49,493 nt of DNA from Leucosporidium creatinivorum (Eukaryota; Basidiomycota; Microbotryomycetes; Leucosporidiales; Leucosporidiaceae). Numbering within the stretch: the stretch's first letter is position 1; each line of letters begins with the position of its first letter. Shown here one piece after another: positions 8,165 through 49,464 of the stretch. The stretch lies in contig BCKL01000002.1 in assembly GCA_001600635.1 (NCBI GenBank), positions 323,232 to 372,724 of the forward strand, given 5' to 3'. The position numbers and the translations under genes were made by a program. The notes below the pieces were generated by a model. The model saw only the letters and a list, made by a program, of their open reading frames with translations, searched no databases and was not told the origin of the DNA.

Positions 8165-8684
8165 GCCGAACAAGAGGCTGAAGAGCTGCAGAGAGTTTGC
8201 AGAGTGTCCGAGGTCTATATCGACATCTCACAGCACCCAACACGCCCTCTCAACCCCTCGCCAACTGCACCCTCTTCAGCTCTCGACGCGCTCCCACCTC
8301 TTGCTTTCCTACGCTCACCTCGTCTCGTCTCGCTTTCGACCTCGCTGCTGGCCTAGAACGCCACAGGCGATCGTATACGAAGCTGCTGGTGAGTCGGTGG
8401 TGCTTTATATCGCCCTACAGCTAGAAGCTGACGAGCCTTGAGTGTTTTCAGAGCCCCACGCTCGACCTCTGCTGCAACAGCCGTTCGTTAGCTCTGTCAG
8501 CGCTCTCGGCCCTACTGCAGGTCAGTAGGAACAATCTACGAAGCACAGAGTGTAGCTGACCGTGCTCTCTCTTCGCTAGCTCGCTGTCCAGCTCGCCGCC
8601 GAGTCGCTCAGCGCTCTCCCGCTTTCGCCTGCTGCATAGCACCCTCGCCCTGCCTCCAACGAGACAACCTCCCCTCTTACCGTC
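8165..8684 (+). promoter_or_regulatory. Conserved upstream block and spliced 5' leader of member A
   Basis: The block (about 8165-8225) has the GCCGA...AGAGCTGCAGAGAG signature. The leader core begins near 8281 and includes CTCCCACCTCTTGCTTTCC. Predicted leader introns are 8399-8451 (donor after GAAGCTGCTG) and 8521-8579. The spliced leader from 8281 contains no ATG before the start at 8685. This module recurs before members B to H. Confidence 0.75.
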
Positions 8685-10203
8685 ATGTCGCATACCGACT
8701 CTTCCTCGTCCAACCCTCCAAAAGCCTTCGCTCGTGTGCCGACGGAGATTAAGGCGCTCATCGCGGCTCTCGCCGCTCGACAGGACCAGGCGTACCAGAG
8801 AAGGGTCCAGAAGGCACTGCAAGTCAAGCAAGAAGACTTCGTGAAAAGCGGAGCTCGCGCCTGGGACGGCAGGAGCATCAACGCTCTCTTCTGCCTCAGC
8901 CGCGAGTGGAGCGCTGTGGCTGCTCCTCACGTGTTCAAGGTGAGTCCGCGTCTCGTCGCTGCAAGAAGGGCAACGTTGAACCTTATCTTAACAGACCGTC
9001 GGCTCGAACAGATGTGGCGAGAGCCTCTTCACCTTCAGCATCGCCATTCGATACGCCGAGGTGACCGAGGAAGCGATCTTCGACTCCAGCGACTCAGAGG
9101 GAGGCCTGGCGCCCCTCCTCAGCAAGCTACCTACCTTCATCAACCTCCGACGTATCTCACTTGACGTCGGCGCCTTGTTCAACCTTCTCGAATTGGAGGA
9201 GTTCGACGACACCGAAATCAGCATGCCCAGTGTGGAGCAGATCCTGCACCGCGTCGCGATGAACGATGCTCTCAAACGCGTTACAGAAGTAACACTGGAC
9301 ACCGCCTATTTATTCCAGCTCGCGCGCCTCTTACCTGCGCTCGAGCGCGTCGAAAGGCTCGAGGTCCGCTGCTACGCCGAGAACGAGGGCCGCGAGATGA
9401 CGCCGTCGCTCCAACACTTCTCACAGCTCAACAGCCTCCAGCACCTATCCTTGACCGACATTCGCCAGCGTTCTCTGCAAGTGGTCGCTGGTCCCTCCGA
9501 CACCCCGGCTCGGAGCTTCTGCGCCGACTTGAAGAGCCTCGAGGTGTCCATTACGGGTAGCGGCCCGCTCTCAGAGCGCAGCTGGAGGTTCTTCGACTCG
9601 GCTTCGACGAGCTTGGAAAGGCTGGTGCTGAAGACGGGCACGAGCACGCTGGCGGATTGGTTAATTCGCCGCGCCGAAGGAGGGGGCTCAACCGGCTTCC
9701 CCGCCCTCAAGCTCCCCCAACTCGAGGCGACCAAAGAGGCTATCCCGCAACTTATATCTCTCCTCTCTCCCTCTCCCCTCCGCACTCTCGTCCTCACCCT
9801 TTCGGACCACCACCACAATGACTCGCCCGACGCCCTTCTCTCTCTCATCCAGCAAGCGGTCGAAAGGTTTGTTAGTACACTGCAAGAGCTGGAGCTCAAC
9901 ATCACAACGCCATCCCACCCTATTTCCTTCATCTCATCCGCCATTGTCGACCAACTGTCTTCCCTCGCCTCGAAGCACGGCATCGCGCTCAAGGTCGGGC
10001 CCCGCTACGACGCCTTCCAGCACCCACTGCCAGACACCGATATCGAAGCCCTTTCCAGCGCATGCGATACGGCGGACGACACGCTCAGGTTCGGACTCGC
10101 TCGCTCGGCGCGCCTGCGAGCGATGGGGGACTTTGATGGAGCAAGGGCGCTACTCGACCTGCTGAGGCCGCTCAAGGGTGAGATGATGCGGGAGGGCGAT
10201 TGA
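8685..10203 (+). CDS. F-box-like/LRR family protein, member A (2 coding exons, 487 aa)
   Basis: Exons 8685-8939 and 8995-10203 give 487 aa. The N-terminal 85 residues have an F-box-like pattern (VPTEIKALIAALAARQDQAY, then WDGRSINALFCLSREWSAVA), and the intron lies just after VFK. The second exon has repeated short LRR-like units (for example LQHFSQLNSLQHLSLTD). It ends with the family signature GDFDGARALLDLLRPLKGEM. F-box proteins usually present substrates to SCF ubiquitin ligases; Skp1 binding here is inference. Members A and B share little beyond the N-terminal pattern, intron position and C-terminal signature. The frame is fully open, so this copy could be functional. Confidence 0.85.
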
Positions 10204-11010
10204 GTGGCGGGAGCTCTTGCTTTTGCGAGGTGCGGGATAAGGCTAGCTGGCGCCGGGCTCGTGAAGAGCGCCGAGGGTGGCGGAGCTGCTGAGAAGGACT
10301 GTCGAAATGGAAGCTTTCGATTCTGTGTGCGCAAAGGTTTGGAGAGCTGCGAGACTCTGTATGTCTACGTTTTTCGAGAGCTGCAGCGAGCACGACTACG
10401 CGAGGCGGACTTCGGCGCTGGGTCTCCCGCCCTTCGGGCCTCGCTCGTCTTTCGAACTCTTCAGCGTTCAGACTCGGCTTTCTCATCAGCGCGAGCGGCG
10501 GAACACCATAGGATGCTATCGTTGACGCAGGCGACACGAGCTAGCACCTTGTCGAGCTGCAGCACGATGGTCAAGTCGGAGCTCGGCGATGGACTGACTC
10601 GACCCAGGCGCGAGGATCGCGAGGTGTTCAGAGGTAGCTCATACCCTGAGCGGGTTGCCCGAAGTCACAACAGACTATCAAGACTCGAGCTGGCGGGAAG
10701 GAGTCGTCAGCTTCCCAAGATCACCGCGATTTGGCTTGGGAGCGAGGTCTCCGATGAGAGGCAGCCTCGGGCAGCGAGTTACGTAGGAGGCGTCTTGAGT
10801 ATCTTGCGAAGCGTGAAGTGGTGAAATCGCTGCATTTTCAACCGATTCTTGAAGGCTACTACATCACTGCCACCGAGATGGCGGAATATAAGAGGAAGCG
10901 AGAGCGCCGAATCACTCCTCTTTCCTTCACCTCACTCGCTACCAGCGCACTCCAAGCAACCCCTCACTCGCCTTTTCACACACACGCTTCACTTTTTCTA
11001 ACACACCACT
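10204..11010. other. Intergenic region, no gene recognised
   Basis: 807 bp between member A and the KGG-protein gene. A long open frame runs through it on the plus strand but has no recognisable motif and no intron signals. A TATA-like GAATATAAG at about 10884 lies some 125 bp before the next ATG and may belong to its promoter; pyrimidine-rich sequence follows. Confidence 0.45.
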
Positions 11011-11418
11011 ATGTCGACCTACAAGCCCTCCGAGCAGTAAGCAGCTCTTCACCGGGCCATTCACCCAAGCTCGGCGATCGCTTCCTCCTTCGTTCGACGC
11101 TAACCCCTCCCTCACTGCACAGCGATGGACTCAAGCAGGACGGAACTCCAGACAAGCGCGTCAACCCCGAGCACGGCTTTGGAGCCGACCACGAGCGCGC
11201 AAGCGAGCTCGGCAAGCAGGGAGGCAAGACTGGCGGCTCGGCGAGTACCGACTCTGAGTCGACAGGCGAGAGCGGATCAGACGGCGCCGATTACAAGTGA
11301 GCAGTTCAGTCAGACTCTGCGATCACCCTTGTGCTGACCACACCTGCTCGACAGGCCCACCGAGAACGACGGACTTCGCAAGGATGGCGAGCCCGACGGC
11401 CGAGTGAAGGGAAACTAA
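11011..11418 (+). CDS. Small KGG-motif, Con-10-like stress protein (3 exons, 87 aa)
   Basis: Exons 11011-11036, 11123-11296 and 11355-11418 give 87 aa. The protein is hydrophilic and glycine-rich, with no membrane segment. It carries one KGG-type motif (ELGKQGGKTGG, about residues 38-48) like fungal Con-10 and bacterial general-stress YciG-type proteins. A 19-residue unit occurs twice, near the N- and C-termini (YKPSEHDGLKQDGTPDKRV and YKPTENDGLRKDGEPDGRV). Such proteins are typically induced by stress or at stationary phase and are probably disordered. Introns 1 and 2 both have standard donors, and the second repeat unit straddles intron 2. The start is set by the first repeat unit, which follows it immediately. 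The molecular function is not known. Confidence 0.82.
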
Positions 11419-11687: not shown

Positions 11688-12292
11688 CGAAAGGGGGAGC
11701 AGCGCCGAGCGACAGGCTAGAGAGCTGCAGAAAGCTATGCAGTGGGTCAGAGATCCGTATCGAGCTCAGATAGCGTCCTACAGCCCCTCGCAACCCCCAC
11801 CACCTACACCCTCTTCAGCTCTCGANGCGCTCCCACCTCTTGCTTTCCTACGCTCACCTCGTTCTGATCTCGCTTTCGACTTCGCTGCTGGACTAGGACG
11901 ACACAGGCGATCATATACGGAGCTGCTGGTGAGTCTGTGCTGCTTTGTATAGTCCTACTTCCTCCAGCTGACGCCCCTCAACCGTTCAAACAGCAAGCTC
12001 GCATCCGCTCTTCTCGCTTGCTGGACGTCGGAAGCTCGCCATTCGCGACTGCTGTGCTCGCTACTGGTGCGTTGGAAGATCACACGACTGCACGCTAGCC
12101 GTTCGCTGACCCTCGTTCCCGATGCAGCTCTCGCCAGCTTGTCGCCCGCGGTGCTCTCTCCGTGAAGCTCGTTCGCTGCTCAGCTACAGGTCAGTGAGTT
12201 GCGCTGTCGTTGTCGAGCGGACTTGAGCTGGTTGCTTACATCTATGTCTGCTAGAACAGCAAGACGAAGCTCTCCAGCCCTCCTCCCTCGCC
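11688..12292 (+). promoter_or_regulatory. Conserved upstream block and spliced 5' leader of member B
   Basis: 11688-11782 is identical, inverted, to bases 1-95. The leader core starts at about 11819 with CTCCCACCTCTTGCTTTCC and holds the single N of the window at 11826. Predicted leader introns are 11929-11993, 12067-12127 and 12190-12259. The spliced leader shows no ATG before 12293. Confidence 0.75.
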
Positions 12293-13829
12293 ATGTCATC
12301 CCCTCCTACCCCTTCGCCCGCCTCGCTCGCCTCAATCCCTCCCGAGATCATGCGCTATATCGCCGAAGCGGCTGCACACCAGGACGAGCGGTACAGGCTA
12401 TTGCGCACCGAGGCGCAGTCGCTGCTACCCGAGGATACGACCGCCTTCGGCCGGAGCTTGTCGGCGTTGTCGATGGCGAGCAAGGCGTGGCGGGCGCAGA
12501 CAGAGTCCTTCCTGTTTGAGGTGAGTACAGCACGTTTGTGTAATGAACAACTTGCTGATCGATGTGACTACAGACCTTGTCGACAGAGCAGCTCGCGGCG
12601 CCGGTCTTCGTCACCGACATCCAGCATCGCTATCGTCAGCACTTCCGCCAGATCAACCTCCACAATGGCTACCTACTCTCGGCCCTGGACACTCTCACCG
12701 CCGCTCTGCCCTTCCTCACCGGCCTGCGCTCCCTGCACATCGACGCCGGCGCCTTCCGCACCCTTTTCGACGACGTAGAGACGGCGGACGGCAACATGCG
12801 ATGGCGAGTCTTCCAAGACCTCGCACCGATGATCTCGGAGCTGTCGATCAGTCTCAGACTAGGATCGAATTTTGCCCGCTTCCTCTCCCTCTTCCCACAG
12901 CTCCATATCCTTTCGTTCGACGCCCTGACTTTTACGACCCCGGCGCCTTGGAGGTTATGGAGGCCATGGCGTCCATGTCACAGCTGAAGGAGCTCACCAT
13001 CAAGACCCTCGACCACCACATCCCTTCGCTGCCCGCCGGGTGGGAAGAGCTCAACTGGTCGTTCCGGCGCTCGCTCATCTCCCTCACCATCGACATCTCG
13101 GAGACTCGTAGTGACGTGGTTTTACCGGACGAGATTTGGTCCTTCGTCCACCTCTTCGCCGGCACTCTCCAATCTCTCGACCTCTCTTTCGACGCTCTCG
13201 ACGCGCGACTCGCGCGGCGCGCCAAAAGCCACTCGACAGCATTCCCCTCTCTTCGACACCTCGCCCTCGCCTGCTCACCACACGCATGCCTCCATATTTT
13301 CTCCCTCATCGAGTATCCTCCCCTCGCCCACCTCACCCTCCACCCTCGGTATCCCATGCCCTTCGGCTCGGCCGAATTCCCGGAAGTCCTTGACACGGCA
13401 CTCGAACGCTTCGCGCCGACCCTGCGCCATTTCGACTGGACATTCCCCACCCACCTCCCCTCCGATTGGTCGCGCGCCGACCAAGCCGACCGAATTGGGC
13501 GCCTCGAGGATCTGTGCCACTCGTCCGGCATCACTTTGAACACCCATCATGGCTTGCGCGACCCTTTCCCTCGACTCAACCCGATTGACCAGCGCCAGCG
13601 CGAGGAAGAACCGGAAATCGTGTTTGCTTTCGAGGACGGCGGGCCTAAAGCTCGCAGCGGCGAGTGGGAGCGTGACTTGCTGGAGCAGGGAGCGGCGACG
13701 AGGGAGGTGTTGAGCTTTGCCGAGGATATGGTTGCGAGGATGGAGAGGACGAAGGATTGTGAGGGGATGGACGAGCTGATGAAGCTCGTGAGGCCGCTGC
13801 GGGCGAGGATGTTGGTCGACAGGGATTGA
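12293..13829 (+). pseudogene. F-box-like/LRR family member B, frame interrupted once
   Basis: Exon 1 (12293-12520) encodes IPPEIMRYIAEAAAHQDERY and RSLSALSMASKAWRAQTESF, and its intron is at the family position. Exon 2 starts at 12574. The coding frame changes once near 12920-12945, between LHILSFDAL and ALEVMEAMASMSQLKELTIK; no GT-AG intron with a valid phase bridges it. The remainder is open to 13829 and ends with KDCEGMDELMKLVRPLRARM plus VDRD. The total size matches the roughly 490-aa family. The break is either a true frameshift or an assembly error (an N lies 1.1 kb upstream), so the copy may be functional. The C-terminal part has a long acidic insert not seen in C, E or F. Confidence 0.7.
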
Positions 13830-18741: not shown

Positions 18742-18745
18742 GCAG

Positions 18746-18810: not shown

Positions 18811-18940
18811 ACGACGAGTCGACTAGTACACTTGCACATACACATATTTGCCTAACGATTCGTCCGCTGCCTAGCAACTTGAGAGAAGCGCGAGCTCGGC
18901 AACGATCGCCGAATTGGCCTCTCCCTCTCGCTGGACGAAC

Positions 18941-19288: not shown

Positions 19289-20812
19289 TCAGTCCTGCTC
19301 CCTCAGCATCTTCCCCCTCAACGGCAACAGCAGCTTCAGCAACGCCTTCGCTCCCTCGTGATCCTCCGTCGACTCCAAACGCCTCACAAAATCGAGACCA
19401 AACTTGAGTGTCTCTGTGGCGGCCTTGCACGACTCCGGGAGCACAATGGCGGGGAGGATGAGGTCTGTTGATTGCTGGTGGAAGGGTTCGTAGGCGGGTC
19501 CGACAGTGAAGTTGAGTAGGTGGGGAACTACCGCCTTGATCTGCTTGCGCATCTTGGCACGTTGCGCGCGTCTGAGGGGGTGCGCAGAGCCATATCTGGA
19601 GAGGATGGAGACGTTGAGGTGCCGGAGGGAGCTGGTCCAGGGTTTGATGGCCTGAAGAATCGGCGGGATGGGATCGTCGTCTTCGGCTGGCTGGGGGCTG
19701 TAGGTGTACTCTACAAGACGAAGGTCGAGTGTGACGAGATTGGGAGGGGAGAGGAGCTGACTGAGCGAGGTAACGTCGATGGCAGTCCCCTGGATGTGGA
19801 GATGTCGAAGCGCATTGAACCGAGCCTGCGGCCGCTCGGGGTCTTCCGCCCACCTGTCGAGCTCCTCCGAGGTCTCGGTGTGGAGGAGCCTAATCGTCAG
19901 GGACTCGAGACAGTCGGCGAACCCTCGAATGAATCCCCATGTATCGAGGCCCAATTCTGTGTCCTCGAAGGCAAGCTCCAAGATGCTGAGCCGGAAAGCG
20001 ACCGAGGAGATGTTGCCTAGGAGCACGCTCAGAGGTTTACTGATATCCTCAATCGAGAGATGCTTGAGGTTCTTGAGTTGGGCGAGGCCAGTAAGCTCGT
20101 TCCCTTTGGCGGGCAGCATCGCGGGGCCGTCGAGATGGAGGCGTCGCAGGGGGGAGTCGGCTAGAGGTGGCAAAACCCAAGCCAGCTCGTTGGTATCGAG
20201 GCCAACGAGCCATAGCTCTGTAATAGCTTGTAAAGAGCGGCCGAGTGCCATCCTGCGCAGTTGTTGCTCCGGCGAGGGACCTTTGTCGCGGAAGCCGAGG
20301 AGGTCGGCGAAGGCGGAAACTGTGATGGTGAGGCGGCGTAGACCGGGAAGGAAGGGGAGGGTACGCAGCAGTGAAGCCTGCTCCTTCGCGTCGTCGTCAT
20401 CGTTATCGAGACTGGCATGCCGAATGAGCGAGCTGAACCGAGGGAGGATGGCTAAGGTGAAGATGTCGTCGCTGCAATGTTCTGAGGTGACGGTCTATCG
20501 AGGAGGGGAGTCAGCGCTCAGAAGTGCACCGACGAGAGGCTCAGATCTAACTTCAAATAAATATGCGCCGGCTGACATCCTCCAGTCCTGGCTGACGAGG
20601 AATAGAGCGTTCAAGCTTCGGCCGTCCCATTCGGTGGCGCCTGCCTTGGCTAGCTCCAGCTCATGCTCTGCGGTATACGGTGCCGTTCGTGCTTTGTACC
20701 GGCGATCCTGATCTCGGCACATTCTCGCGATGAGCCGGTGCAGCTCGGCGGGCAGGCTGGCGAGGGTGACCGAGCTCGAGGTAGCGTCGGCGAAGGTGTT
20801 GGGGGATGCCAT
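19289..20812 (-). CDS. F-box-like/LRR family protein, member C (2 coding exons, 488 aa)
   Basis: Exons 20812-20552 and 20494-19289 give 488 aa. The protein begins MASPNTFADATSSSVTLASL and continues with LPAELHRLIARMCRDQDRRY, WDGRSLNALFLVSQDWRMSA and AYLFE at the intron. The leucine-rich body follows, then the end EDHEGAKALLKLLLPLRGKM plus LREQD. I chose the MASPN start because member F starts at the homologous ATG. An ATG six codons upstream exists only because ATC in F is ATG here. C, E and F form a close subgroup with the same exon phase and near-equal lengths. It is intact, and transcribed toward YTP1. Confidence 0.88.
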
Positions 20813-21525
20813 AGAACAAGCAAGGGACATGTAGAGTGATGGGGTGGCGCTTGGGTGTGACGAGGGCTGTGGATGGTCTTCGGAGCTGGCGAGCGAGCGA
20901 TGAAGAAACGAGTCGAGCGAGGGGGAGGCTGTAGGCGAAGAGACGTCAGCGGGGCTCTTGTGCGGTCCGCCGAGATCTTACTCACATCGCTGAAGCTGGA
21001 TGAACTCGTTGAGCAGCTGTCGAGCTTGGAGCAAACGAGCGACGAGGTAGAGCAGCACGCGGCGAGACGGGAGCAGCGACGGGCGAGGGTGGGAGCTGTA
21101 GGTAAGAGAGCGGGTCAGCGATAGCTTCGGAAGTACATCAAACATCCTGCGCACCTGTAGCGATTACGAGGAGCGCGAAGAGCGAGCTTCACTAGCGAGA
21201 AGAGCGGGTTCGAGCGTCCTAATTGAGGGAGCGAATGGTGAGCTGAGAGCTGTAAGACGGTACAGAGCAGCAGATATTCACCAGCAGCTTCGAGATCAAT
21301 CGCTAGTGTCGTCCTAGTCCAGCAGCGAAGTCGAAAGCGAGAGCGATAAATGAGGTGAGCGTAGGAAAGCAAGAGGTGGCAGCGCGTCGAAAGCTGGAGA
21401 GGGTGCAGATGGTGAGGGGTTGGGAGGGGCTGTAGGGCATATTCAGAGCTCAAGCTAGACCTCTGACTCCCTGCAAAGCTCTCTGCAGCTCTCTAGCCTG
21501 TCGCTCGGCGCTGCCGCTTACGCCG
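20813..21525 (-). promoter_or_regulatory. Conserved upstream block and spliced 5' leader of member C
   Basis: On the minus strand the upstream block is at about 21525-21465 and the leader core at about 21400-21281. Predicted leader introns are 21280-21219, 21154-21096 and 20985-20929. Intron 3 starts directly after CGAT, so only unspliced RNA contains ATGTGA at this point. The layout matches members E and F closely. Confidence 0.78.
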
Positions 21526-21888: not shown

Positions 21889-23504
21889 CTATCCCCTCCT
21901 CTTCTTAGGCGCCTGGCCGTCGTCCTCGTCGCCGTCCGAGCCATCTTCGTCGGCCCTTCCCCTTTTTTGCCTCGACCCTTCCTCGACATTCCCCTCCTCG
22001 TCGGCGACAAAGATCCTCTCCTGATAGATCATAGCTTTTCCCCTCTTTGCGACTCCCCCCTCGTTGACGACGAACACCTCTTCGAAGGTGGGCTGACGAG
22101 CTGATCTGCCAAGTCCTTCGGCGGCTCCTGCTCGTGGAGGCGCAGGCGGCGGCGATCCTCCTCCGCCCTCGTTTGGCTCAGGGTCGCGGACGATGACGAT
22201 GATCACGATCACAATGATGATGATGAGGTTGTTGTCGTCGCCCGTCTCCTCGTCAGTCGATGTGGGCGGTCCAGCACCTCCATCGTCGTCCTCGGTCTTG
22301 ATCTCGGGCTTGACATCCTCATCCTTGTCGGCGTCGCTTCCCTCGTTGTCCTCCTCCATCTCATCTTGATCCGCTTCGGGGATCCTCCACGCCTCTCCCG
22401 TCTCCTCGTCCACCTCAACCGAAGGGTCGAGTCCGAGCTGCTCCTCCAACTGCCTCAACCTTCTCGCTACGGCGAAGAAGTCGGCGTCCTGGACATCTCG
22501 ACCAGTCTGGTAGTCCTCGAGTTGAATTTCAAGATCGTCGACTTCGTCCTGCAGCTCCTCTTTGGTCTCGAGCAGCTCCTGGTGTTCTTCCTCGAGGGCG
22601 CTGAGGTCGTCGTTGGCGATGGTGAGAGCTTCGTGGGTCTGGCCGCAGTGAGGGGAATGGATGGCGATTTGACGGCGGTCTCCACGAGTAGGACAACCGA
22701 GAGTGGGGCAGCTGTAGCGGAGGAGGGTGCAGGGAGCGATGATCAGCTCTTTGCTCCGCCGAGTCTGCTCTCCTCCTCGGGTCGATGTTCAACTCACGAC
22801 CAGTACTTGCACACCTCATCATGTGCAGCAGCATTGTGGCGGAAGTAGATGCACCTCTGCTCTCCATCAATGAGGCCGCGACGACAAGCGAGCTTCTGGT
22901 TCGGGCAGGTCGTTCGGCGATGAGTGCTGACGTCCTTGGCGGGATGGTGGAGCGGGCAGCCGTTCGGGCAGGGAATGGGCTTAAGCTTGCACTGTGTCAG
23001 GATAGGTGAGCTCAATGTTCGGGATGCTGAGACGAGTTTTAAGGCTCACTGTCGAGTCGTGCAGCTCCTTCTCGCGCAGCTTGCCCTTCCAGTCGCAGCC
23101 GTCGAGCTTGTTGGTGCAGCAGATCCTATAGCAGCATGGTCAGCTCTGCTCAAATTCAGTCGAAGGAGAGAACTCACTCGAACTCGTCCACAAGACGCCT
23201 CAAGAAGGAAGCCGGACGAGAAGCGAGTTGCTGCTGCTGCTGAGGTACTCCAGAGGCCTCGCACGTCTTACACCCCACCTGATCCGTCGCACACTGCTCT
23301 CACAAAGCGGTGGATCAGCTCGCGTTCCCGCAACTCATTCGCCCGCTCGGCCCTCGCCCCGCACGACCAGCTGCAGCTCACCTCCTTGCACTGCGCATGC
23401 TCTTCACTACAGACCCAAACAGCTTCCTCGAGCGCAAGCTTGCACACTTGGCAGCAGAGAGAAGCATGCGGCGACGAGGTGAAGAGGACGAGCGGGTGAC
23501 CCAT
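21889..23504 (-). CDS. RING-like/TRAF-type zinc-finger coiled-coil protein, copy 1 (443 aa)
   Basis: Exons 23504-23382, 23293-23178, 23125-23050, 22991-22798 and 22711-21889 give 443 aa. An N-terminal degenerate RING pattern (CCQVCKLALEEAVWVCSEEH, then C..C pairs to CKTC) is followed by TRAF-type zinc fingers. These include CTNKLDGCDWKGKLREKELH, CPNGCPLHHPAKDVSTHRRT and CPNQKLACRR, with the last Cys/His set ending near residue 185. A coiled coil follows (about 200-250), then a very acidic region and a basic end PKKRRG resembling a nuclear signal. Such proteins often act as ubiquitin ligases or adaptors; activity here is inference. A run of Ile/Val (LIIIIVIVIIVIV) interrupts the acidic region and arises from a trinucleotide repeat. 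Its paralogue is at 44749-46473 with the same intron positions. Confidence 0.82.
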
Positions 23505-24129: not shown

Positions 24130-24717
24130 GAACAAGTTACAGCGACCTGCGAACCTCGGTCAGGGGGAGAAGGAGCGCCGAGCAGCAGCTTTGAAGGGCT
24201 GAGAACAGCTCAGCAGCGCTGTATATTAACACAGAGTGTCGAATGCCTCTACTCTGCACCACTTCCACCCCTAAACTTCGAACTCTTGCCAGCGACGAAC
24301 ACGCTCCCACCTCTTGCTTTCCTACGCTCACCTCGTCTCTCGCTCGCTTTCGACTCGCTGCTGGATCAGGACGACACAGGCGGTTGATTACGAAGCTACT
24401 GGTGAGTTGCCGCTGCTCTTCATCGCCCTGCAGCACCTTGCTGACCCGTCTGGTGCTCTGAACAGGACGTTCGAACCCGCTCTCAGCTCTCACTCTTGCA
24501 AGCTCGCTCTTCGCGCTTTTCCTGCTCGCTACAGTGCGTCGAGCGCAGCTAGTAGCTGTGATTGCATCGCTGACCCTCCTTTGCACGTACAGCCTCCCGC
24601 CCGCCCGCCGCTGATCCGACCTCCCTCAGCCCGCTCATCGACCCCTAAACTCACTCGCTGACTCTCGAATACATCACTCCAAGCTCCTACCGAACACCGA
24701 GTCGCTCACTTTCCACC
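24130..24717 (+). promoter_or_regulatory. Conserved upstream block and 5' leader of member D
   Basis: The block at 24130-24260 contains TATATTAACACAGAGTGTCG and is almost identical, inverted, to the member G block near 43970-44100. The leader core begins at about 24297. Predicted leader introns are 24402-24465 and 24534-24592. No ATG follows in the spliced leader before 24718. Confidence 0.75.
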
Positions 24718-26227
24718 ATGGCCACCTCCTCGACCAACGCGCCGCCCGCTCGGCGCCGTACCTCGCTCGACGACCTGCCGAAGGAGCTCAAGGCGCTCAT
24801 CGTTGAGATGGTTGACGATCAGGACCGTGCCCTTCCGAATCGATTAAGCTCGTACAATGAGGCTGAGTGGACTGCGTTAGCCGACGTGGAAAGGGATCTG
24901 GACGGCGGGGGCAACGGAGCCATGCGCTTAGTGAGCCGAGAGTGGGGAGCCCTTGCAGACGCGAGGTTGTTCAGGGTGAGCTCCGACAGCCTACTTGCAT
25001 CCTGTCCCGCGCTAATCAGGCTCCCGTTACTTGGGAACTCTATTGTGCTCGCTGCCTGCAGCTCGACATCTTCGCCTTCGACATTCTTCGTCGCCACGCC
25101 TCTCTCGTACAAGAGGTGGCTTTCGTGAAAGGATGTGCCAAGGAAGATTATATCGTGCTCCTACGATCGCTGCAGCAGCTCAAGAACGTCGTAACCCTGA
25201 TGCTCGGTAAGGAGCCCTTCGAATCGCTCTTCGGCGATAGCGAGGCGCCGCCTACCGAGGAGCAGGCCAGGTATCGAAATGCCTTCATTGTATTAGGCTC
25301 GCAGATCGAAGAGCTCAACCTGCCAAAGGTCTCGTCGAGGGTGCTCGCCTGGGCATTGCCGCCTTTCGTCAACCTTCGCGCGCTGTACTTCGACCTGAGC
25401 GAGACTGGGGACGCTCGAGGCGCAGTGGACCTCATCGCGGAACTACCGCATCTTCATACCCTCGGGATCTTCTTCCTGGATACGGAAGCGGGCCACGCTT
25501 TGAGGGACGCCACCACGACGGGACGCTGGCGCTCGGCCTCCCTCCGGAACCTCGTCCTGTCCAGCCCGATTGGCGCCTTCCTGGACGGCATCAAGATCTT
25601 CATCGAGCACTTTTCCTCATCGAGCACGTTTCCTCCACTTTAGACACTCTGAACCTTCGAATCAACGATCTGGAGGTCGACCACCCGTCCGCTGTCGAAC
25701 GCCTTTCGGGACAAGCATCGCTCTCCCTCGTCTTCGACACCTCTTCCTTCACGGACAGGTGGACGACATTGCCTTTCAACTCGCACTCTTCAAGAGCTCC
25801 CCCTTTATCATTCTCTACATCTTCATTGGACCGCCAGTTCGCCCCCTCTCTCCTCTCGACATCACGACAGCGGCCACGAACATCTTCAAGATCCTTGTCC
25901 AGGCCCATCACCCTCACCTCTATGTTCGTCCTAATGGTGCCGCGGCACTGGACTACGCGATCACCCACCTTTTCAACTGCCTCGCCTCGCAACACGGCAT
26001 AGCCCTCCTCCCCTCCTACGATGTCTTCCTCCATCGCCGCCAACTCATCAGCGACCCAGACTCGTCAGGAGCAAACGAGAAGACGCTGCGACGGAGCGGG
26101 CAAGGTGCTGAGGCATACGCTGGCCGAGTCGGGCAGGATGAGGGCGATGGGTGATTTGGAGGGCGCCGAGTCGTTGGTCGAGGCGTTGACGCCGTTGAGG
26201 GCAAGGATGCTGAGGGACAAGGATTGA
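24718..26227 (+). pseudogene. F-box-like/LRR family member D, several frame breaks
   Basis: Exon 1 (24718-24975) encodes DLPKELKALIVEMVDDQDRA and GAMRLVSREWGALADARLFR, with the family intron ending at 25061. Exon 2 reads cleanly to about 25610. Coding similarity then continues through three different frames: a piece with LDTLNLRINDLEVD, a piece with LPRLRHLFLHGQVDD and DYAITHLFNCLASQHGIALL, and the family end GDLEGAESLVEALTPLRARM plus LRDKD. So there are about three frame changes. One coincides with a 17-bp near-perfect tandem duplication at about 25608-25641. The copy is probably a pseudogene, although assembly errors cannot be excluded. Its partner copy G in the inverted duplication is broken as well. 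Confidence 0.72.
25608..25641 (+). repeat. 17-bp tandem duplication inside member D
   Basis: Two adjacent 17-bp units beginning CATCGAGCAC differ at one base. The unit length is not a multiple of three, so the second unit shifts the reading frame of member D. Confidence 0.75.
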
Positions 26228-26614: not shown

Positions 26615-27326
26615 GCCGAAAGCGGAAGGAGCGCCGAGCAAGAGGCGGAGCAGCTGCAGAGAGCTTTGCAGAGGCTCAGAGATATCTGTTCGCCTCTCAT
26701 GGTGCCGTACAGTCCCTTTCGACTTTCTGCCAGCTGCACCCTCTTTGCCTCTCGACACACTCCCACCTCTTGCGTTCCTACGCTCACCTCGTTTTCCGCT
26801 CGCTTCCAACTTCGCTGCTGGACTAAGACGACACTAGCGATTGGATACGAAGCTGCTGGTGAGTTTGTGCTGCTCTGTACTGTCTTACAGCTTTCAGCTC
26901 ACCATTCGCTCCCTCAAGCAGGACGCTCAAACCCGCCCTCTTCTCGCTCTTAGAGCTCGCTGCGCGTGACTCTCGTGCTCGCTACAGGTGCGCAGGATGC
27001 TTGATGTGCTTACGAGACTATCGCTGACCCGTCTCTTACCTACAGATCCCGTCCTCGCCCGTCGCTGCTTCCATTTCGTCGCGTGCTGCTCCTCCTCGTC
27101 GTCGCTTCTTCCAAGTTCGAAAGCTGCTCAACGATTTCGCCCAGTTTCCACAATGTGAGCTTGACTTGCCTGCCCCGCTTGAGAGCCCTGCTGACCCTTC
27201 TCGTCAGCAGCCCTCTCCGCTCGACCCGTTTCTTCATCGCTCGCCAGCTCCGAAGCTTCTCCCACGACACTCGTCTTGCCCGGGCTCCGCCCTCCTCGAT
27301 CCTGCTACGCTTCTCACGCTCTATCG
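26615..27326 (+). promoter_or_regulatory. Conserved upstream block and spliced 5' leader of member E
   Basis: The upstream block is at about 26615-26690 (GGAGCGCCGAGCAAGAGGC and AGCTGCAGAGAGCTTTGCAG). The leader core is at about 26755-26858. Predicted leader introns are 26859-26921, 26988-27045 and 27155-27210. The spliced leader has no ATG. Retained intron 3 would present ATGTGA at 27153-27158. Confidence 0.8.
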
Positions 27327-28851
27327 ATGCCGCGCTTTTCCTCCACTGGCGCTCCTTCGAGCTCGGTCACCCTCGCCAGCCTGCCCGCCGAGCTCCACTC
27401 GGTCATCGCGAGAATGTGTCGCGATCAGGATCAGCAGCTCAGATTACGGACGTCCGGCAGGCCCGATGCTCGCCACATGGAGGTAGCGTTATCCGGCTTA
27501 ACGGACTGGGACGGCCACAGCCTAAACGCTCTCTCCCTCGTCAGCCGAGGTTGGAGGATGTCAGCCACCGCCTACCTTTTCGAAGTGAGCCTCGCAGCCA
27601 CATCCGCTTTCAGTGATGACTCCTGACATCTCGCGCAACCAGACCATCACATCTGACCGCTGCGACGATGAACTCTTCAGCTTCGGAATCATGGGTCACT
27701 ACGCCCACCTCATCCGCCACGCACACCTCAGCACCACCAGCGACTGGACGGAACAAAGCTCCCTGCTTCGCGTCCTTCCCACCCTCCCCTCCCTCCGCCG
27801 TCTCACCCTCGCAGCATCCGTCTTCGGCGACCTCCTCGGCCTAGCGCCTACCGTCCCAGCTCCCTCCTTCGAGCAACAGATGCGCAGGTCGACCCTCTCA
27901 CGAATCATGCAGTCTGTTGTGGAGCTGTTTCTCGAGGAGATCGAGTCCGAGCACCTGGCGTGGATTCTAGCACCTCTGGCCGACTCGGCGCTCTTACGGC
28001 TCGACCTCAACGCCATCGAGCTCCTCGGTTCACCCGCCGAGCGTAGTAGCCTTTCACACCTCAAAAACCTCCAGCACCTTTCGGTCTGCAGCATCAACGA
28101 CCATTTGAGCGAGCATCTGGGCGATACCTCCGCCGTCGCCTTCCGGCTCCGAACCCTGGAGCTCGCCTTCCAGGACTTCGACCTCGGCCTGGACACCTGG
28201 AGATTTATCCAAGGCTTCTCCGACTGTCTTGGAGCTCTATCGATCAAGCTCGACAATAGCGTGCTCTCGCAAGAGCTGATTAGCTACCTGGAGGATGTCC
28301 AGCACCAGCACCGAGTAGCCTTTCCCGCCCTTCGTCGTCTCCGAATGGAGGGGTGCGTTACCTCCGTCACCACACTCCTTCCACTCCTCTCCTCCTCTAC
28401 CGTTGATTCGCTCGACCTCACCCTGCTCAACTATAGCTACTCGCCCAACCTCGGCGATCTCTCGAGGGCCGGCGATCCCCTCCTTCCCCTCTTCGCCTCG
28501 CTGAAGCCGTGGTCCACCTCGCTCAAGCGGCTCAACATCACCTTCACCAAAACCCGCGCCACGTTGTGCTATGTCACGAACGAGGTCGGCATGCGCAGGC
28601 AAGTGGAGGCGCTGGCACCTTACGCTCAATTCACCGTCGGCCCCAACTACGACGCCTTCCAGCAACGCCCCACGGACCTCATCGTCCCTTCGGTGGGACT
28701 CTCCGACGCGTGCAAAGCGGCGACCGGCGCGCTCAAGTTTGGCCTCGACCTGGTTGGGCGCTTGGAGGCTACGAGGGATCACGAGGGAGCAAAGGCTTTG
28801 CTCAAGCTGCTGATGCCCTTGAGGGGGAAGATGCTGAGAGAGAAGGATTGA
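27327..28851 (+). CDS. F-box-like/LRR family protein, member E (2 coding exons, 488 aa)
   Basis: Exons 27327-27584 and 27643-28851 give 488 aa. The N-terminus has SSSVTLASLPAELHSVIARM, CRDQDQQL, then WDGHSLNALSLVSRGWRMSA and AYLFE at the intron. Exon 2 begins TITSDRCDDELF. LRR-like units include SHLKNLQHLSVCSINDHLSE and LRRLRMEGC-type repeats, and the end is RDHEGAKALLKLLMPLRGKM plus LREKD. It is closest to members C and F. The start aligns with the MASPN start of F, although the first eight residues differ. It is intact, with the family-typical phase-0 coding intron. It probably acts as an adaptor if Skp1 binds; that is inference. Confidence 0.88.
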
Positions 28852-32699: not shown

Positions 32700-33428
32700 G
32701 CGAAGCTCGGTCAAGGGGGGGGCATCGCCGAGCAGCCGCCCGGGAGCGTTGAGCAAGGCTGATCAGTGCTACAATCGATTACCGAGCTGCTGCCGCCTCA
32801 TAGGCTGCACCACGCTCGCCCCATAAGATCCAAGTCAACCCAGCCACGGACGCGCTCCCACCTCTTGCTTTCCTACGCTCACCTCGTCTCGTCTCGCTCG
32901 CTTTCGACTTCGCTGCTGGACTAGGACGGCACTAGCGATTCAATACGAAGCTTCTGGTGAGTTTGTGCTGCTCTGTGCTGCACTACAGCGCCCGGCTGAC
33001 CACTCGTGCTCTCGACCAGGACGCTCGAACCCGCTCCTTCGCTCTAGAAGCTCGCTGCTCGCGACTCTCGTGCTTGCTACAGGTGCGTTGGATGTAAGTC
33101 GTACCTCTGAGACTCTCGCTGACCACCCCTAACACCTACAGCCTATCGTCGCTCGCTCGCTGCTCCCTTCTCGTCGCGCGCTGCACTACCTCGTCGCTCG
33201 TTTGCTCCAAGCTCGAAAGCTGTTCGACGAGTCCATCCAGCTTCAGCGATGTGAGTAGGACGACGGCGGACCTCACCAGAGCCCTGCTGACCTCGCCTCG
33301 CCTACAGCCCTCCCCCTCGCTCGACTCGTTTCTTCATCGCTCGCTCGCTCGCCAGCTCGGAAGACCTTCCACAGCCCTCGTCACGCCCAAGCGCCACCCC
33401 ATCACTCTACATCTCCCTTGCTCGTTCC
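32700..33428 (+). promoter_or_regulatory. Conserved upstream block and spliced 5' leader of member F
   Basis: The upstream block (about 32700-32790) has AAGCTCGGTCAAGGGGG and CGCCGAGCAGC, more like D and G than like B. The leader core is at about 32846-32956. Predicted leader introns are 32957-33019, 33083-33141 and 33251-33307. The spliced leader contains no ATG. Intron 3 begins after GCGAT, so unspliced RNA carries ATGTGA at 33249-33254. Confidence 0.82.
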
Positions 33429-34950
33429 ATGGCGTCCCCCAACACCTCCGCCGACGCTACCTCGAGCTCGGTCACCCTCGCCAGCCTGCCCCCCGAGCTG
33501 CACCGGCTCATCGCAAGAATGTGTCGGGACCAGGATCGCCGGTACAAAGCACGGACGACTTCGCGCGACTCAGAACGTCATCTGAAAGTGGCGAAGGCGG
33601 GCGCCACAGATTGGGATGGCCGAAGCTTGAACGCCCTCCTCCTCGTCAGCAAAGGCTGGAGTAAGGTCGCAGCCACCTACATCTTTGAGGTCAGCATGCA
33701 GATCGCTTTGTATCTACAGCTTAAGAGCTGATCGACTAGCTCCGCAGACCGTCTCCTCTGGGAGTTGTATCAATCCTCTTTTCGACTTCGAGGTAGTCCC
33801 ACAGTATGCCTCGCTCATTCGGCACGCCTCTTTCGACGACGACGACGTGGAGGCGACCAGTCAGGCTCCTCTCCTGCGCCCTCTCCCCTTCTTCCCTCAT
33901 CTGCGCCATCTCACCCTTACATCATCAACATTCGTCGACCTCCTCGGCTTTGGTCTCGGTACAACGCCTTCGCCTCAGCACCTTCAACACAGAAAGGCCC
34001 TGATTCGCTCCACTCGGTCAATCGAGGAGCTCTCACTCGACAGCGTTGATGCGGACGACCTCGCCTGGGTGCTGGAGCCTCTCGCCGACTCGGCGCTGTG
34101 CCGCCTCGACATCGTCTTGTACTTCGAAGCCGGCACATCGACCGCAGAAGCACGCAATTCGCTCGCAAGACTCAAAGGACTTCGTAGTCTATCCCTTCGG
34201 GACCTCCACACGACTTCGGACGGCCTCCTCAGCAATCCCTCGTCGTTCAACTCCGAGCTCGAGAGCTTGGAGCTCGGCTTCTTCGAACATCACCTAGACC
34301 TGGAGACCTGGACCTTCGTCGAAACCTTCTCGCACACCTTAACCTCCCTCTCAGTCAAGCTGGATCTCACCGGCGTCGACGGTGCGCTAGACGTCTCGGC
34401 GGAGGGAGGGGAAAGAGCACCGAGCACACCGTTCCCGGGTCTGCGCCATCTCCGCGTGGAAGGAACCGGCGCCGCCATCATCACCGTCCTCAAGCTCTGT
34501 TCTGCTTCATCCGTCCTCAATCTCGACCTCCGTATCTTCGAGTACGGCACCACAGCAGAGCGAAACCCACTCGCCGACATCACCTCCCTCGCTCTCAAGC
34601 TGTGGCCCGCCTCGCTCAAGCGACTCGAGGTTTCCATGGTCCCTGACGAACGTGGACCCCAGTGGTTTAGGTCGGAAGCACTACGCACAGCTAGCAAGAG
34701 GATCTCGCGGGCTGCTCCAGGAATCGACTTTGTCGCTCAACCTCGTTCCGACGCCTTCTACCACTACCATCGTTTTGCGAGGAAGAACAACAATCCGCTC
34801 CACAGAGCGCATCAAGCTGTCACCGAGACGCTCAACTTCGGTCTCGGCTTCTCCGATCGCCTGCTCGCAACGGGGGACGCGGACGGTGCCAAGGCGTTGT
34901 TGGACATGTTGGTCCCGTTAAGGGGGAAGATGTTGAGGGACAGGGATTGA
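33429..34950 (+). CDS. F-box-like/LRR family protein, member F (2 coding exons, 487 aa)
   Basis: Exons 33429-33689 and 33748-34950 give 487 aa. It starts MASPNTSADATSSSVTLASL, then LPPELHRLIARMCRDQDRRY, WDGRSLNALLLVSKGWSKVA and YIFE at the intron. The LRR-like body follows (for example LARLKGLRSLSLRDLHTTSD), and the end is GDADGAKALLDMLVPLRGKM plus LRDRD. The first 45 residues are almost identical to C, while the body is much more diverged, suggesting faster change of the presumed recognition region. After the TGA the same frame stays open for about 70 more codons with a helical-looking composition. It is intact. Confidence 0.88.
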
Positions 34951-41959: not shown

Positions 41960-43533
41960 TCAAAGCTGCCGCTGTATCATCAGCGACCTCATCGGCTCCA
42001 TCGCCAACATCATCGCCTCTACTCCATACGCATCTCCCGTCGCTCGAAGCCTTCCCGTGAGGCTGAGAGCGAACTGAGCCACCTCCTCGATGGCGCCGCA
42101 GCGCTTATCGGTGCAAGCTGGGTGGGTAGGGTCGAGATCGCGCCGGTCCAGTGGTCGTTCAGTCCACATGTTGGCCCTAAGTTTAGTGACTATGCGGAAC
42201 GTCGGTCCCTTCGAACCGGCGACCGTCACTCGTCGAGGGTCGAAAGCGGATGATGCAGGTGAGAGGTCGCCGCGCTGAAGTGTCACTTCTTGGAGGTAGC
42301 GCAATATCGTTCGAGTTGAGTAAAGAGTTGGAGGAGCTGGGTCGGGCTGATCTCAGCCGAGTCGAGGGGCACGCGGATTGTGAGATGCTGCAGGGGTGAG
42401 GGCGAGAGTCGGCGCAGGAGGAGGGTGGCGGTCGAGTGGTTCATGCTAGCAGTGAGGTTGCGTAGATGAGGGAATGGGTGTGTCTGGTCGGGGGTGGAAG
42501 AGGTGTCGAACATCGCATCCTCGGCCGAGGTGGGGAGGCGGCCAAGGTCGAGCGACTCGAGAGTGGCGGCGAAGTGTTGCACGAAGCGCCAGCGTGCTTT
42601 GCTGTGATCACCGTACCGGTATCTGAGCCTCAGCGAGCGCAGGGTTGACAGACACTTCCAATCGTGGAGGTGCCAGGTCTCACCGAACCCAACTCCATCG
42701 AGGCCGAGCGGCGAGTGGTCGTCATCCGAGACGTCCAACTCCTGCAGATGATGACAACCCGCCACCATCGACTCAAAAAGGCGGGCGTCCTCTGCGCCGT
42801 CCCTCGGGTTGAGTCCGTCCTCGTCGTAGTGGACGAAGCCGTTGATGGAGAGCTTGTCGAGGAGAGGAAGCGCGTCGATGATCCAGGCTAAGACGCCTGT
42901 CGTAGGGTCGTGCACCTTGAGCTCTTTCACAGCCCCTACAGCGCTGGAAAAGGCCTCGCGAAGGGTGACAGCGTCATAGAAAGGAGAGTCGCCGCCGAGA
43001 GGATAGTCGTTCGAGCCGAGGTAGAGGGGGATGTCGAAGAGCATGGAGGCTTGATCGCCTCAAATTTCCAACCGAAGAAGGGAAGGGAAGAGGTGGAGCG
43101 ACAGGATAAGGTTCTGGTGTATCTCCTCCTCTACATTGGCCGCGAAGACGACATCCTGAACGAAGCGAGCGTACTTTCGCAGCACTGGCCCTCGGAAGAG
43201 CATGCTCATGCAGTCTTGCCCTTCGAGACGCTGCGACCCAATTCTGAGTCAGCGGTCCGTCCGGTAATTCGGTAGGCTCGTACGCACGCGAAAGACGAAG
43301 GGGGCAGCCACGGCGCTCCATGCTCGGTCAAGGAGGAAGAGGGCGTTCAGGCTCTTGCCTGCCCGAACCAGCGTAGCCGCATTGTGTAGCGTCTTAGCTC
43401 GTCCCGTAGCGTCCGAGGCATGCTGCCTATACTCCTTGTCCTGCCTGTAAGCGAGCGAGGCGATCATCCGCTTGATTTCGGTCGGGAGGGTCGATAGGGA
43501 AGGCGGCGAGAGAGAGGTAGACGTGGCGCTCAT
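41960..43533 (-). pseudogene. F-box-like/LRR family member G, one stop and one frame change
   Basis: Exon 1 (43533-43288) encodes TLPTEIKRMIASLAYRQDKE and SLNALFLLDRAWSAVAAPFV, with the family intron ending at 43231. Exon 2 starts at 43230. An in-frame TGA lies at 43062-43060, after LFPSLLRLEI, and the same frame then continues with MLFDIPLYLGSNDYPLGG. A frame change near 42290 separates this from the C-terminal part, which ends with the family-like GDAYGVEAMMLAMEPMRSLM at 41960. LRR-like units are still clear (FPHLRNLTASMNHSTATLLL). The two lesions make this a likely recent pseudogene, unless they are assembly errors. It is the mirror partner of D. Confidence 0.72.
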
Positions 43534-44104
43534 GCTCAGTGATTGCTTGGTGAACCGGAACGGAACGGAGGCGAGTGCAGCAGAGGTGGAGGTCGGGGGA
43601 GGGCGAGAGACGCGGCGAGGGGAGAGCAGCGGTGGGCGAGCTTCGTCCTGCAGGCGTATAGTAGAGGGTCAGCGATACTATCAGAGATACTATCGATATC
43701 TCCGCACCTGTAGCGAGCACGAGAGCTGAGTGCAGCGAGCTTCCAGAGCGAGAAGAGCGGGTTCGAGCGTCCTGTTTGGGAGCACCAGTGGTCAGCTGAG
43801 CATTCAGAGCAGTACAGAGCAGGACAGACTCACCAGCAGCTTCGTAATCAACCGCCTGTGTCGTCCTGATCCAGCAGCGAAGGCGAAAGCGAGGCGAGAA
43901 ACGAGGTGAGCGTAGGAAAGCAAGAGGTGGGAGCGTGTTCGTCGTTGGCAAGAGTTCGAAGTTTAGAGGTGGAAGTGGTGCAGAGTAGTGGCATTCGACA
44001 CTCTGTGTTAATATACAGCGCTGCTGAGCTGTTCTCAGCCCTCCCAAGCTGCTGCTCGGCGCTCCTTCTCCCCCTGACCGAGGTTCGCAGGTCGCTGTAG
44101 CTTG
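43534..44104 (-). promoter_or_regulatory. Conserved upstream block and 5' leader of member G
   Basis: On the minus strand the block is at about 44104-43970, with TTAATATACAGCGCTGCTGA on the plus strand. The leader core is at about 43950-43834. Predicted leader introns are 43833-43772 and 43707-43648. It is nearly identical to the D block over at least 200 bp. Confidence 0.75.
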
Positions 44105-44748: not shown

Positions 44749-46473
44749 ATGGGCTACTAGTTCGATCGCTTTAAATCGCCACCGCCAACCTCGCTACACT
44801 GTCGGGTCTGCAAGCTCGTGCTCGAGGAACCGCTCTGGGTCTGTAGCAAAGATCACGCTGAGTGCAAGGAGGTGAGTCGAGCGTGACGCGCGCGCAGAAG
44901 GGCGCGAGCGCTGCATAGTGGAGCAGGCGAGCTGACGGGGAGCATCTAAAGTGTTACAACGAGCACGAGCTTGGGTGTTTCGCATGCGCTGAGCTCGGCC
45001 AAGAGCAGGAGAGAGCAGCTTTCGCCGCTCGCGAGGCTTCCTTCATTCAACGCGTCGTTGAAAACTTGGAGTGAGTTCAGACTCCACTGGGACGGTGAAT
45101 AAGATTAGCTGACCTCCTACCCCTCGCAGGGTCTTCTGCACCGACAAGCGAAGCGGCTGCAAGTGGAAGGGCAAGCTCGGCGAGGAGGCTCAGCACGCTG
45201 CGAAGGTGCGCATCGAGGTTCCTTCGACTTGCTGCATTCACAACGAGAGCTGACGCTGACTATATAATCCAGTGCGGATTCGCCACCGTCGCCTGCCCCA
45301 ACGGATGCCCCTTCGTCTTGCTCGTCAAAGATCGCTCGGCGCACCGTCGCTCGGTCTGCCCTCTTCAGAAGCTCGCCTGCCGTCGCAGGATCGTCGACGG
45401 AGAGCCTCAGTGCATTTACTTGAGGAACGATGCCGAGGCGCACGACCTCAACTGCCAGTACTGGACGTGAGTCGACTTGGGCCAGCGCGACAGCGAGCTC
45501 TAAGCTCACCTTCGGGCGAACAGGTGCTCGGTCGACGGCTGCTCGACAAGAGGACCTCGCGACATGATCGAGTCTCATGAGGAGCAGTGCTGCGACCTGC
45601 ACACGGAGCTTTCGGGCGCCGTCAAAGAGCTCGAGGCCAAGACGATTGAGTACGAAGAGGAAAAGGAGAAGCGCGACGAGGCATTTGCGGAACTCGAATA
45701 CGAGCGAGACTGCGCCATGGAGGAGTCGAGCGAGTACGAGACCTCGCTCGATACCTCGCGTGACGAGCTCTACACCGTCGCATCCAGGCTGAGGACGTTG
45801 GAGGAGCATCTCGGACTCGAACCCACTGTCGACGTCGACGACGACTGTGGATCCGCCGACCTCATCGAGCGCCCTAGCAGCTACAACTCCGCCGGTGGAC
45901 TACTCGCCCCGCCCGCCGCCGGCGCGCAGGCTTCGACCGATTGGACCGAGATCGACGACTTCGACCTTCGCCCCGTCGCCAGCCTCTCTCCTTCCCAGGT
46001 CACGCTCCACGACCGCCTCGTCGAGTCCTTTAAGACCAAGAAGGCGCTCGAGGAAGCGAAAGCGGCGCGCGAAGCGGCGGTGCAGGAGGCGCTCAAGAAC
46101 CTCGGCGATGCTCAACGACTCGCCGCGGTCAGTCTCTTGTTCTCAACGCAGCCTATCGGGTCGAGCGCTGACCTTTTGCTCTCACGCTTTCACTATACAG
46201 AACCAGACCGCCGTCCCCATCCCCGTGCCCGTCGCCGTCCCTCAGCCACCTCCCGCCCCTGCTGCTCCTCCCGCTCCGCCTGCGCCAGTGGATCTCGCCG
46301 AGGCCGTCATCGACCAGGTTCGAGTCAACTACTGCACCTTCACTTCCGTCGTTGATTGGGGAGGAGGACCTCACGTTCAGAGCTGGATTCGTGACGGCAA
46401 GAGGAGGACCGACGACGACCAGCGCAAGATGTCCGAGATCACCTCTTCGTTCAAAAAGCCCAAGATTGGCTGA
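44749..46473 (+). pseudogene. RING-like/TRAF-type zinc-finger protein, copy 2, stop at codon 4
   Basis: Exons 44749-44871, 44952-45070, 45130-45205, 45273-45466, 45524-46127 and 46201-46473. The ATG aligning with the copy 1 start is followed by GGC TAC TAG, yet the exon has exactly the same 123-nt length and frame and then reads CRVCKLVLEEPLWVCSKDHA. The Cys/His pattern is intact (CFACAEL, CTDKRSGCKWKGKLGEEAQH, CPNGCPFVLLVKDRSAHRRS, CPLQKLACRR), followed by a coiled coil, a Pro/Ala-rich linker and a new C-terminal exon absent from copy 1 (WGGGPHVQSWIRDGKRRTDD). Exons 3 and 4 are the same length as in copy 1 (76 and 194 nt). With such an intact body, an alternative upstream exon, a downstream start or a recent nonsense change are all possible. 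Confidence 0.68.
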
Positions 46474-46609
46474 GGAGGAGGGATGCATGAGTAGCCCAAT
46501 CGCTTTGTGTTAGCTTGATGTAACTGCTTTGCTTCGTCTCGTCGTCCTCGAAAAGCCTCGCGAGCCACAAGAGGTTCGCACCCCCGCATTTCGAAGCTCT
46601 CCCTCGTCC
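46474..46609. other. Short spacer before ATG22
   Basis: 136 bp holding the end of zinc-finger copy 2 and the ATG22 promoter or 5' UTR. No other signal is seen. Confidence 0.35.
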
Positions 46610-48931: not shown

Positions 48932-49109
48932 TGTAATGAGCTGTATCGCAAATTTGCCGAGCAGCGTAAAGCTCAAGCTCGGCTTGGATGTCTCGGCGAA
49001 GGGCTGTACAACGACTTGCGCTACAGATGGTGAGATGAGCGATGCAGAGCAGCAACTTATGAATAGAGACAGACTGCCTTAGCGACCTGAATCTTACTCC
49101 GAGCCCCTA
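48932..49109. other. Spacer after ATG22
   Basis: 178 bp downstream of ATG22. Nothing distinct is seen before the member H leader. Confidence 0.35.
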
Positions 49110-49464
49110 TGCTTGCCCCTTCCCAGCTCTCGACGCCCGCTCACCTCTTGCTTTCCTGCGCTCACCTCGTCTCGCCACGCTCCGACTTCGCTGCTGGACT
49201 AGGACGACATAGGCGATCGAATACGAAGCTGCTGGTGAGTTTGTGCTGCTCCGTATCGCCCTACAGCCCCAAGTTGACGCTATTCGCGCTCCCAAGCAGA
49301 CGCCCGCTTGCTCCTTCTCTCGCTCAAGTCGCACTTTCTGATCTACGGAGAGGTCAGTGATGGCAGCACTCTCGTAGTACAGCGCTTAGCCAACTCTCCT
49401 CTCTCCGCGCCCCGCTCTACAGCCACCTCGCCCCGTCGCCCTCTTCTCGCAAGCCGCCTCAGAA
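49110..49464 (+). promoter_or_regulatory. Conserved 5' leader of member H
   Basis: The leader core at about 49126-49234 has CTCACCTCTTGCTTTCCTGC and ends GAAGCTGCTG before a GTGAGT donor at 49235. Predicted leader introns are 49235-49299 and 49353-49432. The first ATG in the spliced form is at 49465. The upstream block is weak or absent here. Confidence 0.75.

Follow-up and report, generated by a model that had tools for sequence, protein, structure and literature searches.

The regulatory start of a gene family on contig C2 of Leucosporidium creatinivorum is far more constant than the proteins encoded behind it, and an exchange of modules is visible on both of its sides. This start is a non-coding leader of approximately 125 bp. 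It probably represents the core promoter or transcription start region, the first non-coding exon and the 5′ splice site of a family of F-box-like/leucine-rich-repeat (LRR) proteins, kept by purifying selection as the constant module of genes that ectopic recombination has made mosaic.

The stretch under study (the window; 49,493 nucleotides, C2:323232-372724) has an assembly gap at either end and belongs to a genome of 27.7 Mb in 63 contigs. The first-pass annotation had described eight leaders in the window, and three motifs indeed mark all eight far above chance: CTCCCACCTCTTGCTTTCC (up to three mismatches) gave 8 matches in the window vs. 0.03 expected, CGCTGCTGGACTAGGACG gave 8 vs. 0.05, and GAAGCTGCTGGTGAGT gave 9 vs. 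0.9, eight of which are the leaders. Their positions in the window are as follows.

8285-8406, plus strand: leader A (motif matches and profile), with a core promoter-like 5′ half, a 3′ half and GTGAGT
11824-11947, plus strand: leader B (motif matches and profile)
21263-21389, minus strand: leader C (motif matches and profile)
24298-24420, plus strand: leader D (motif matches and profile)
26754-26877, plus strand: leader E (motif matches and profile)
32849-32975, plus strand: leader F (motif matches and profile)
43815-43939, minus strand: leader G (motif matches and profile)
49132-49253, plus strand: leader H (profile), with its gene expected inside the assembly gap past the window

A genome search using leader F as a DNA query returned 19 matches, 18 in C2:320677-578524 and one of 40 bp on contig C4. 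An nhmmer profile of the leader identified 20 copies in the examined part of C2 (the weakest at 1.6e-24), and one further copy in locus L064 brought the total to 21, all within a single 260-kb stretch; C2:542701-555899 and 560442-576908 were covered through the genome searches only. A family gene was found downstream on the same strand for all 19 leaders with readable 3′ sequence and for the L064 leader, the distance from leader start to the start of the N-terminal domain being 447-638 nt (19 copies). Leader H falls outside this test because the assembly gap C2:372725-375424 follows it directly. A search with protein E retrieved 21 stretches, all in C2:318870-580245, the others being 24-55% identical to E, and 20 of 21 family genes examined possess a leader of their own, the exception being the gene that starts in L063. 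No leader without a gene was encountered among the 20 testable copies, nor do the copies lie mostly away from the family: in the genome searches full-length leaders were confined to this one region, though the 5′ half was found elsewhere. A mobile element was provisionally set aside in view of this confinement.

Conserved genes are interspersed among the family members; a MutS domain V (Pfam MutS_V, E 1.1e-36), for instance, lies just upstream of leader A at window positions 6714-7250 (plus strand). Two window ORFs, 45099-46352 (plus) and 21892-22788 (minus), appear related by eye, and one of them has a sub-cut-off Pfam match to a TRAF zinc finger. Near the former, a 1.2-kb segment at C2:368151-369298 has 77% similarity to C2:408278-409445. 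A mating-type region was considered and rejected, the two STE3 matches being on contig C25 and not on C2; these matches, together with intron-like signals, agree with a basidiomycete genome.

Gene models were derived from ORFs and GT/AG signals alone. Within the leader, a pyrimidine-rich 5′ half containing CTTGCTTTCCTACGCTCACCTCG is followed by a spacer of variable length, a 3′ half (GACTTCGCTGCTGGACTAGGACGACACAGG..GAAGCTGCTG), and GTGAGT. Further downstream, the alignment of CTGAC-like and CAG signals suggests that two 5′-UTR introns precede the ATG. The resulting features, with the untranslated parts given for E, are:

8685-10200, plus strand: gene A; coding exon 1 8685-8939, exon 2 8995-10200
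12293-13826, plus strand: gene B; coding exon 1 12293-12520; body in two frames (disrupted, a further intron or an assembly error)
19292-20830, minus strand: gene C; coding exon 1 20830-20552, exon 2 20494-19292
24718-26224, plus strand: gene D; coding exon 1 24718-24975; matches to the body in several frames
26859-26921, plus strand: proposed 5′-UTR intron 1 of E, GTGAGT..CTCAC..CAG, from aligned GT, branch-like and AG signals
26922-26987, plus strand: proposed non-coding exon 2 of E, from aligned signals
26988-27045, plus strand: proposed 5′-UTR intron 2 of E, GTGCGC..CTGAC..CAG, from aligned signals
27327-28848, plus strand: gene E; coding exon 1 27327-27584 (F-box-like), exon 2 27643-28848 (LRR)
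33429-34947, plus strand: gene F; coding exon 1 33429-33689, exon 2 33748-34947
41972-43533, minus strand: gene G; coding exon 1 43533-43288; matches to the body fragmented and in two frames

Pfam searches with ten first exons yielded weak matches, to F-box-like_2 in seven (best E 0.006) and to F-box-like in three; in the family member displayed in full the F-box match was below the cut-off, and the AlphaFold model of the first exon was poor (pLDDT 66.9). Genome-wide, at least 128 PF12937 stretches were found with 150 of 330 candidates scored, none of these in the C2 cluster. No Pfam LRR match exceeded the cut-off in the body. Its AlphaFold model, built on an 11-row alignment (pLDDT 79.7), displayed an LRR-like alternation of helix and strand, and the best Foldseek matches were a ribonuclease inhibitor (E 1.6e-4) and the F-box/LRR protein D3 (E 5.8e-4), with modest TM-scores of 0.30-0.39. 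The body is accordingly modeled as a leucine-rich-repeat solenoid, and the family is best described as F-box-like, by weak profile matches, with LRR bodies, by predicted fold; its members are probably substrate adaptors of SCF ubiquitin ligases. Non-synonymous sites differed on average by 0.50 among 12 bodies (66 pairs), and synonymous sites by 0.62. Positive selection was considered and rejected, NG86 dN/dS being 0.36-0.67 in seven body pairs; in the short first exon of copies I and L, dN (0.034) exceeded dS (0.024) on few changes.

The leader was compared with its surroundings in 16 of the 20 copies (120 pairs), H (gap), N (no donor found), O (exon stop) and P2 (no exon model) being excluded. 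Mean identity was 0.815 in the leader and 0.538 in coding exon 1, with the leader higher in 111 pairs, so that the earlier claim of a leader better conserved than the proteins was borne out. This included A and B, the proteins of which had been singled out as hard to align: their leaders are 0.90 identical vs. 0.46 for the first coding exon. The nine exceptions were six pairs with L, which has a degraded 5′ half, and the pairs I/K, K/M and Q/R; much of the 5′ half has been lost from both L and P2, a point against the proposed role of the leader. At synonymous sites of coding exon 1 identity fell to 0.37 (p-distance 0.633; leader higher in 119 of 120). The leader also exceeded the 125 bp upstream of it (mean 0.553; 116 pairs), intron 1 (0.647; 109 pairs) and intron 2 (0.518; 117 pairs). 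The non-coding exon 2 is itself fairly conserved (0.714), which counts against our reading of the leader, the latter being higher in only 95 of 120 pairs. Along the alignment, column identity was 0.75-0.84 across the 125 bp of the leader vs. 0.45-0.57 in the 75 bp preceding it and 0.52-0.70 in most of the 5′-UTR past it; positions 425-500 were again high, but are present in only 34-42% of copies. Conservation is therefore sharply bounded, spanning some 125 bp and ending just past the 5′ splice-site sequence.

The content of the leader bears on what is being conserved. A single ATG was found in 20 copies, at the extreme edge of the leader in I, vs. 19.2 in shuffled sequences. A coding role, for a peptide or a conserved N-terminus, is hardly credible: certain frames are open in single copies, but lengths fall into all classes modulo 3 (9, 6 and 5 of 20, the donor of I being misplaced in this count), stops occur in every frame fixed at the donor (in 6, 6 and 15 of 20 copies), and a third-base pattern is absent (0.125, 0.150, 0.104). 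A role as RNA, either as a structured element or as the target or source of small RNAs controlling the family, would agree with a leader that is probably transcribed and conserved on one strand. We nevertheless regard it as very unlikely, since RNAalifold revealed no covariation (of 15 predicted pairs one had changed on both sides; covariation term 0.03) and Rfam gave no match in the window.

Searches of the genome with parts of the leader separated its two halves. The 3′ half gave 12 matches, all inside the C2 cluster. A 23-bp core of the 5′ half (up to three mismatches) gave 43 matches vs. one for a reversed control pattern, 18 in the family and 25 outside it, the latter spread over 12 further contigs with one in the window; a 19-bp core gave 121 vs. 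14. The examined part of C2:300-580 kb contained one strong non-family core site. The non-family site in the window (16149-16121, minus strand) is followed after 17 nt by the start codon of an unrelated ORF without a Pfam match at E 0.01. We evaluated 30 non-family sites, namely 23 of the 25 in the 23-bp set, the C4 site and six 19-bp sites (three chosen near an F-box and three as exact matches). At 15 of the 30, the first ATG within 130 nt after the core opened a frame of at least 80 aa, vs. 2876 of 16761 random positions (17%); among the 15 that failed, four are F-box genes with long leaders and the others are unexplained. The motif CGACTYG followed the core in 7 of 24 sites vs. a background of 2%. 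Recurrence on the sense strand at gene starts is the behavior anticipated of a core promoter element, and suggests that the 5′ half acts as one.

The products behind the non-family cores presumably differ, as by eye one appeared NAD-epimerase-like and another MYND-like. F-box-like products also occur, on C5 where the ATG follows after 31 nt and on C22 behind a long leader. Of the 121 19-mer sites 100 were listed, 12 of these being family sites; 7 of the remaining 88 had a PF12937 F-box 413-659 nt downstream in the same orientation (0.3 expected), a spacing similar to that in the C2 family, and two control layouts together produced two such pairings. In C15/C22 F-box pairs the leader was identical at 93/111, 96/110 and 88/109 positions, and the protein at 26/63, 73/182 and 48/78; leaders more alike than proteins thus also occur in the F-box genes of L065 and L066 (C15) and L043, L048, L049 and L059 (C22). 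The C15 leader, TCGACTCGCT..GAAGCT..GTGCGC, resembles that of C2. Near-identical duplicated genes with the core were observed in L060/L061 (C38) and in L041, L046 and L062 (C5, C52), the C52 copy being without the ATG that its relatives have at that place.

The first-pass annotation had offered selection on RNA or DNA function, or repeated gene conversion, as causes of the conservation. Selection on function agrees with the sharp edges, the paucity of ATGs, the 5′ splice-site sequence and the recurrence of the 5′ half at other gene starts; RNA structure was not supported, and the 5′ half also occurs outside the family.

Exchange between copies is real as well. The 125 bp upstream joined 10 of 16 testable copies into one group (pairwise 0.64-0.92), beside the pair D/G (0.96) and four singletons. 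An upstream signature noted earlier, AGAGCTGCAGAGAG, had 11 matches in the window (up to two mismatches; 2.3 expected), of which two precede leader C and one each leaders A, B and E. The grouping by coding exon 1 was quite unlike that by upstream block, and the two matrices were uncorrelated (rho -0.135, permutation p 0.77). Similarity along the 5′ region was scored in an alignment that tolerates gaps and has a background near 0.6; its values upstream of a0 and I mean little, as these copies have only approximately 200 bp of readable sequence there. In D/G the adjoining upstream DNA is 96% alike and the first coding exon 43%; in I/L the relation is reversed, the alignment beginning 35 nt inside the leader and continuing for 2.3 kb through a nearly identical body, vs. 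0.46 in the upstream 125 bp. Copies I (C2:375667-378002, L023) and L (C2:428731-431061, L028) have bodies 92% alike over 2.35 kb, with dS 0.024. Common upstream DNA extends over 0.9 kb in D/G and 1.3 kb in B/J, and falls to background within approximately 100-300 nt past the leader start. As far as its start codon copy a0 resembles J as well as N, but in the body N alone.

Could gene conversion alone keep the leaders alike, in a sequence of no special function? The exchange is plain in I/L, D/G, B/J and the a0/N blocks. Moreover, frame-disrupted copies have leaders just as alike as those of other copies. The matches to bodies B, D, G, M, N and P2 were broken into pieces, which lay in a single frame for P2 and in different frames for the rest, and the first exon of copy O contains a stop; this may reflect decay, further introns or assembly errors. 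With L excluded, pairs that include one of the disrupted copies (B, D, G, M) had a leader identity of 0.845 and pairs that include two of them 0.864, vs. 0.828 in pairs with none; selection on working genes does not predict this unless the breaks are recent or are assembly errors. We nonetheless consider conversion alone improbable. Local alignments crossed the leader in 166 of 171 pairs and 60 of these began within 15 nt of its first base, so that conversion tracts would have to end at identical edges despite unrelated flanks; the leader stays alike even where two copies, D and A for instance, have nothing else in common, which recombination alone does not easily explain. Conversion would likewise leave the avoidance of ATGs and the occurrence of the 5′ half before unrelated genes on 12 other contigs to be explained. 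Both selection and recombination are visible at the leader.

The closest analogue that we found is the conserved upstream DNA of the Pneumocystis msg genes, where an upstream conserved sequence (UCS) with a 33-bp CRJE characterizes family I and conserved upstream regions characterize families II and III (PMC10622565). Both systems are fungal multigene families of mosaic genes with a conserved sequence at the gene start. The msg genes encode subtelomeric surface antigens, in contrast to the interstitial F-box-like/LRR genes of C2, the CRJE lies inside coding sequence and the C2 leader is non-coding, and msg family I uses a single expression site where the C2 family has a leader per gene. Such a single site serving silent copies was rejected here, 20 of 21 family genes having their own leader. 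The leader might still be a recombination junction that exchanges coding bodies behind promoters, as proposed for the CRJE, and both the uncorrelated upstream and coding similarities and the shifts that D/G, B/J and I/L show at the leader or close to it are as this would predict. Other changes of partner, in J/I and a0/J, occur near the start codon, and therefore the leader is not the sole junction; most copies carry their own upstream block, and a functional promoter would yield the identical pattern as a by-product. We thus judge a junction function to be improbable too, by a shade more so than conversion alone.

Nematode F-box families are large and fast-evolving. Large expansion is also described for plant F-box families (PMC3719486). 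The C2 family resembles both in its F-box and LRR-type bodies, in birth and death, and in its many disrupted copies; for neither was a leader more conserved than the proteins reported among the literature matches listed. The core of the 5′ half is similar to Inr-like or pyrimidine-rich core promoter elements in being strand-specific, pyrimidine-rich, near start codons and common to unrelated genes, and differs from them in its length (approximately 23-29 bp) and in its restriction to a gene subset. A literature text search with CTCACCTCG, yeast and promoter brought up no evident element of this kind among the matches listed, nor was the C2 family or its motif reported among the literature matches listed.

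We propose that the family was amplified locally, with the leader beginning each transcript, and that purifying selection preserves the leader because it would be the working start of each transcript. The 5′ half (approximately CTTGCTYTCCTACGCTCAYCTCGTCTC, often followed by CGACTYG after some 10 nt) would be an element of the core-promoter class that other genes also use, and the 3′ half up to GTGAGT would be peculiar to the C2 family. Ectopic recombination within the 260 kb would join differing upstream blocks and coding parts around the leader and 5′-UTR, so that the leader would remain the unchanging part of otherwise mosaic genes. Selection on a start module, together with recombination on both sides of it, explains most of the observations. 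A more tentative extension is that the promoter-plus-first-exon cassette is older than the families now behind it (C2, C15, C22, perhaps C5 and C12), new fast-evolving adaptor bodies having been repeatedly attached by recombination; the promoter might then outlive the families and keep them under one control.

Co-regulation of the family, as envisaged in the first-pass annotation, is plausible from the shared leader. The leader provides a DNA tag with which very divergent F-box-like genes can be found in the L. creatinivorum genome, and its core points to a long element of the core-promoter class in this organism. It also offers a direct test of whether the members are expressed jointly as an arsenal, for example in defence, self/non-self recognition or stress.
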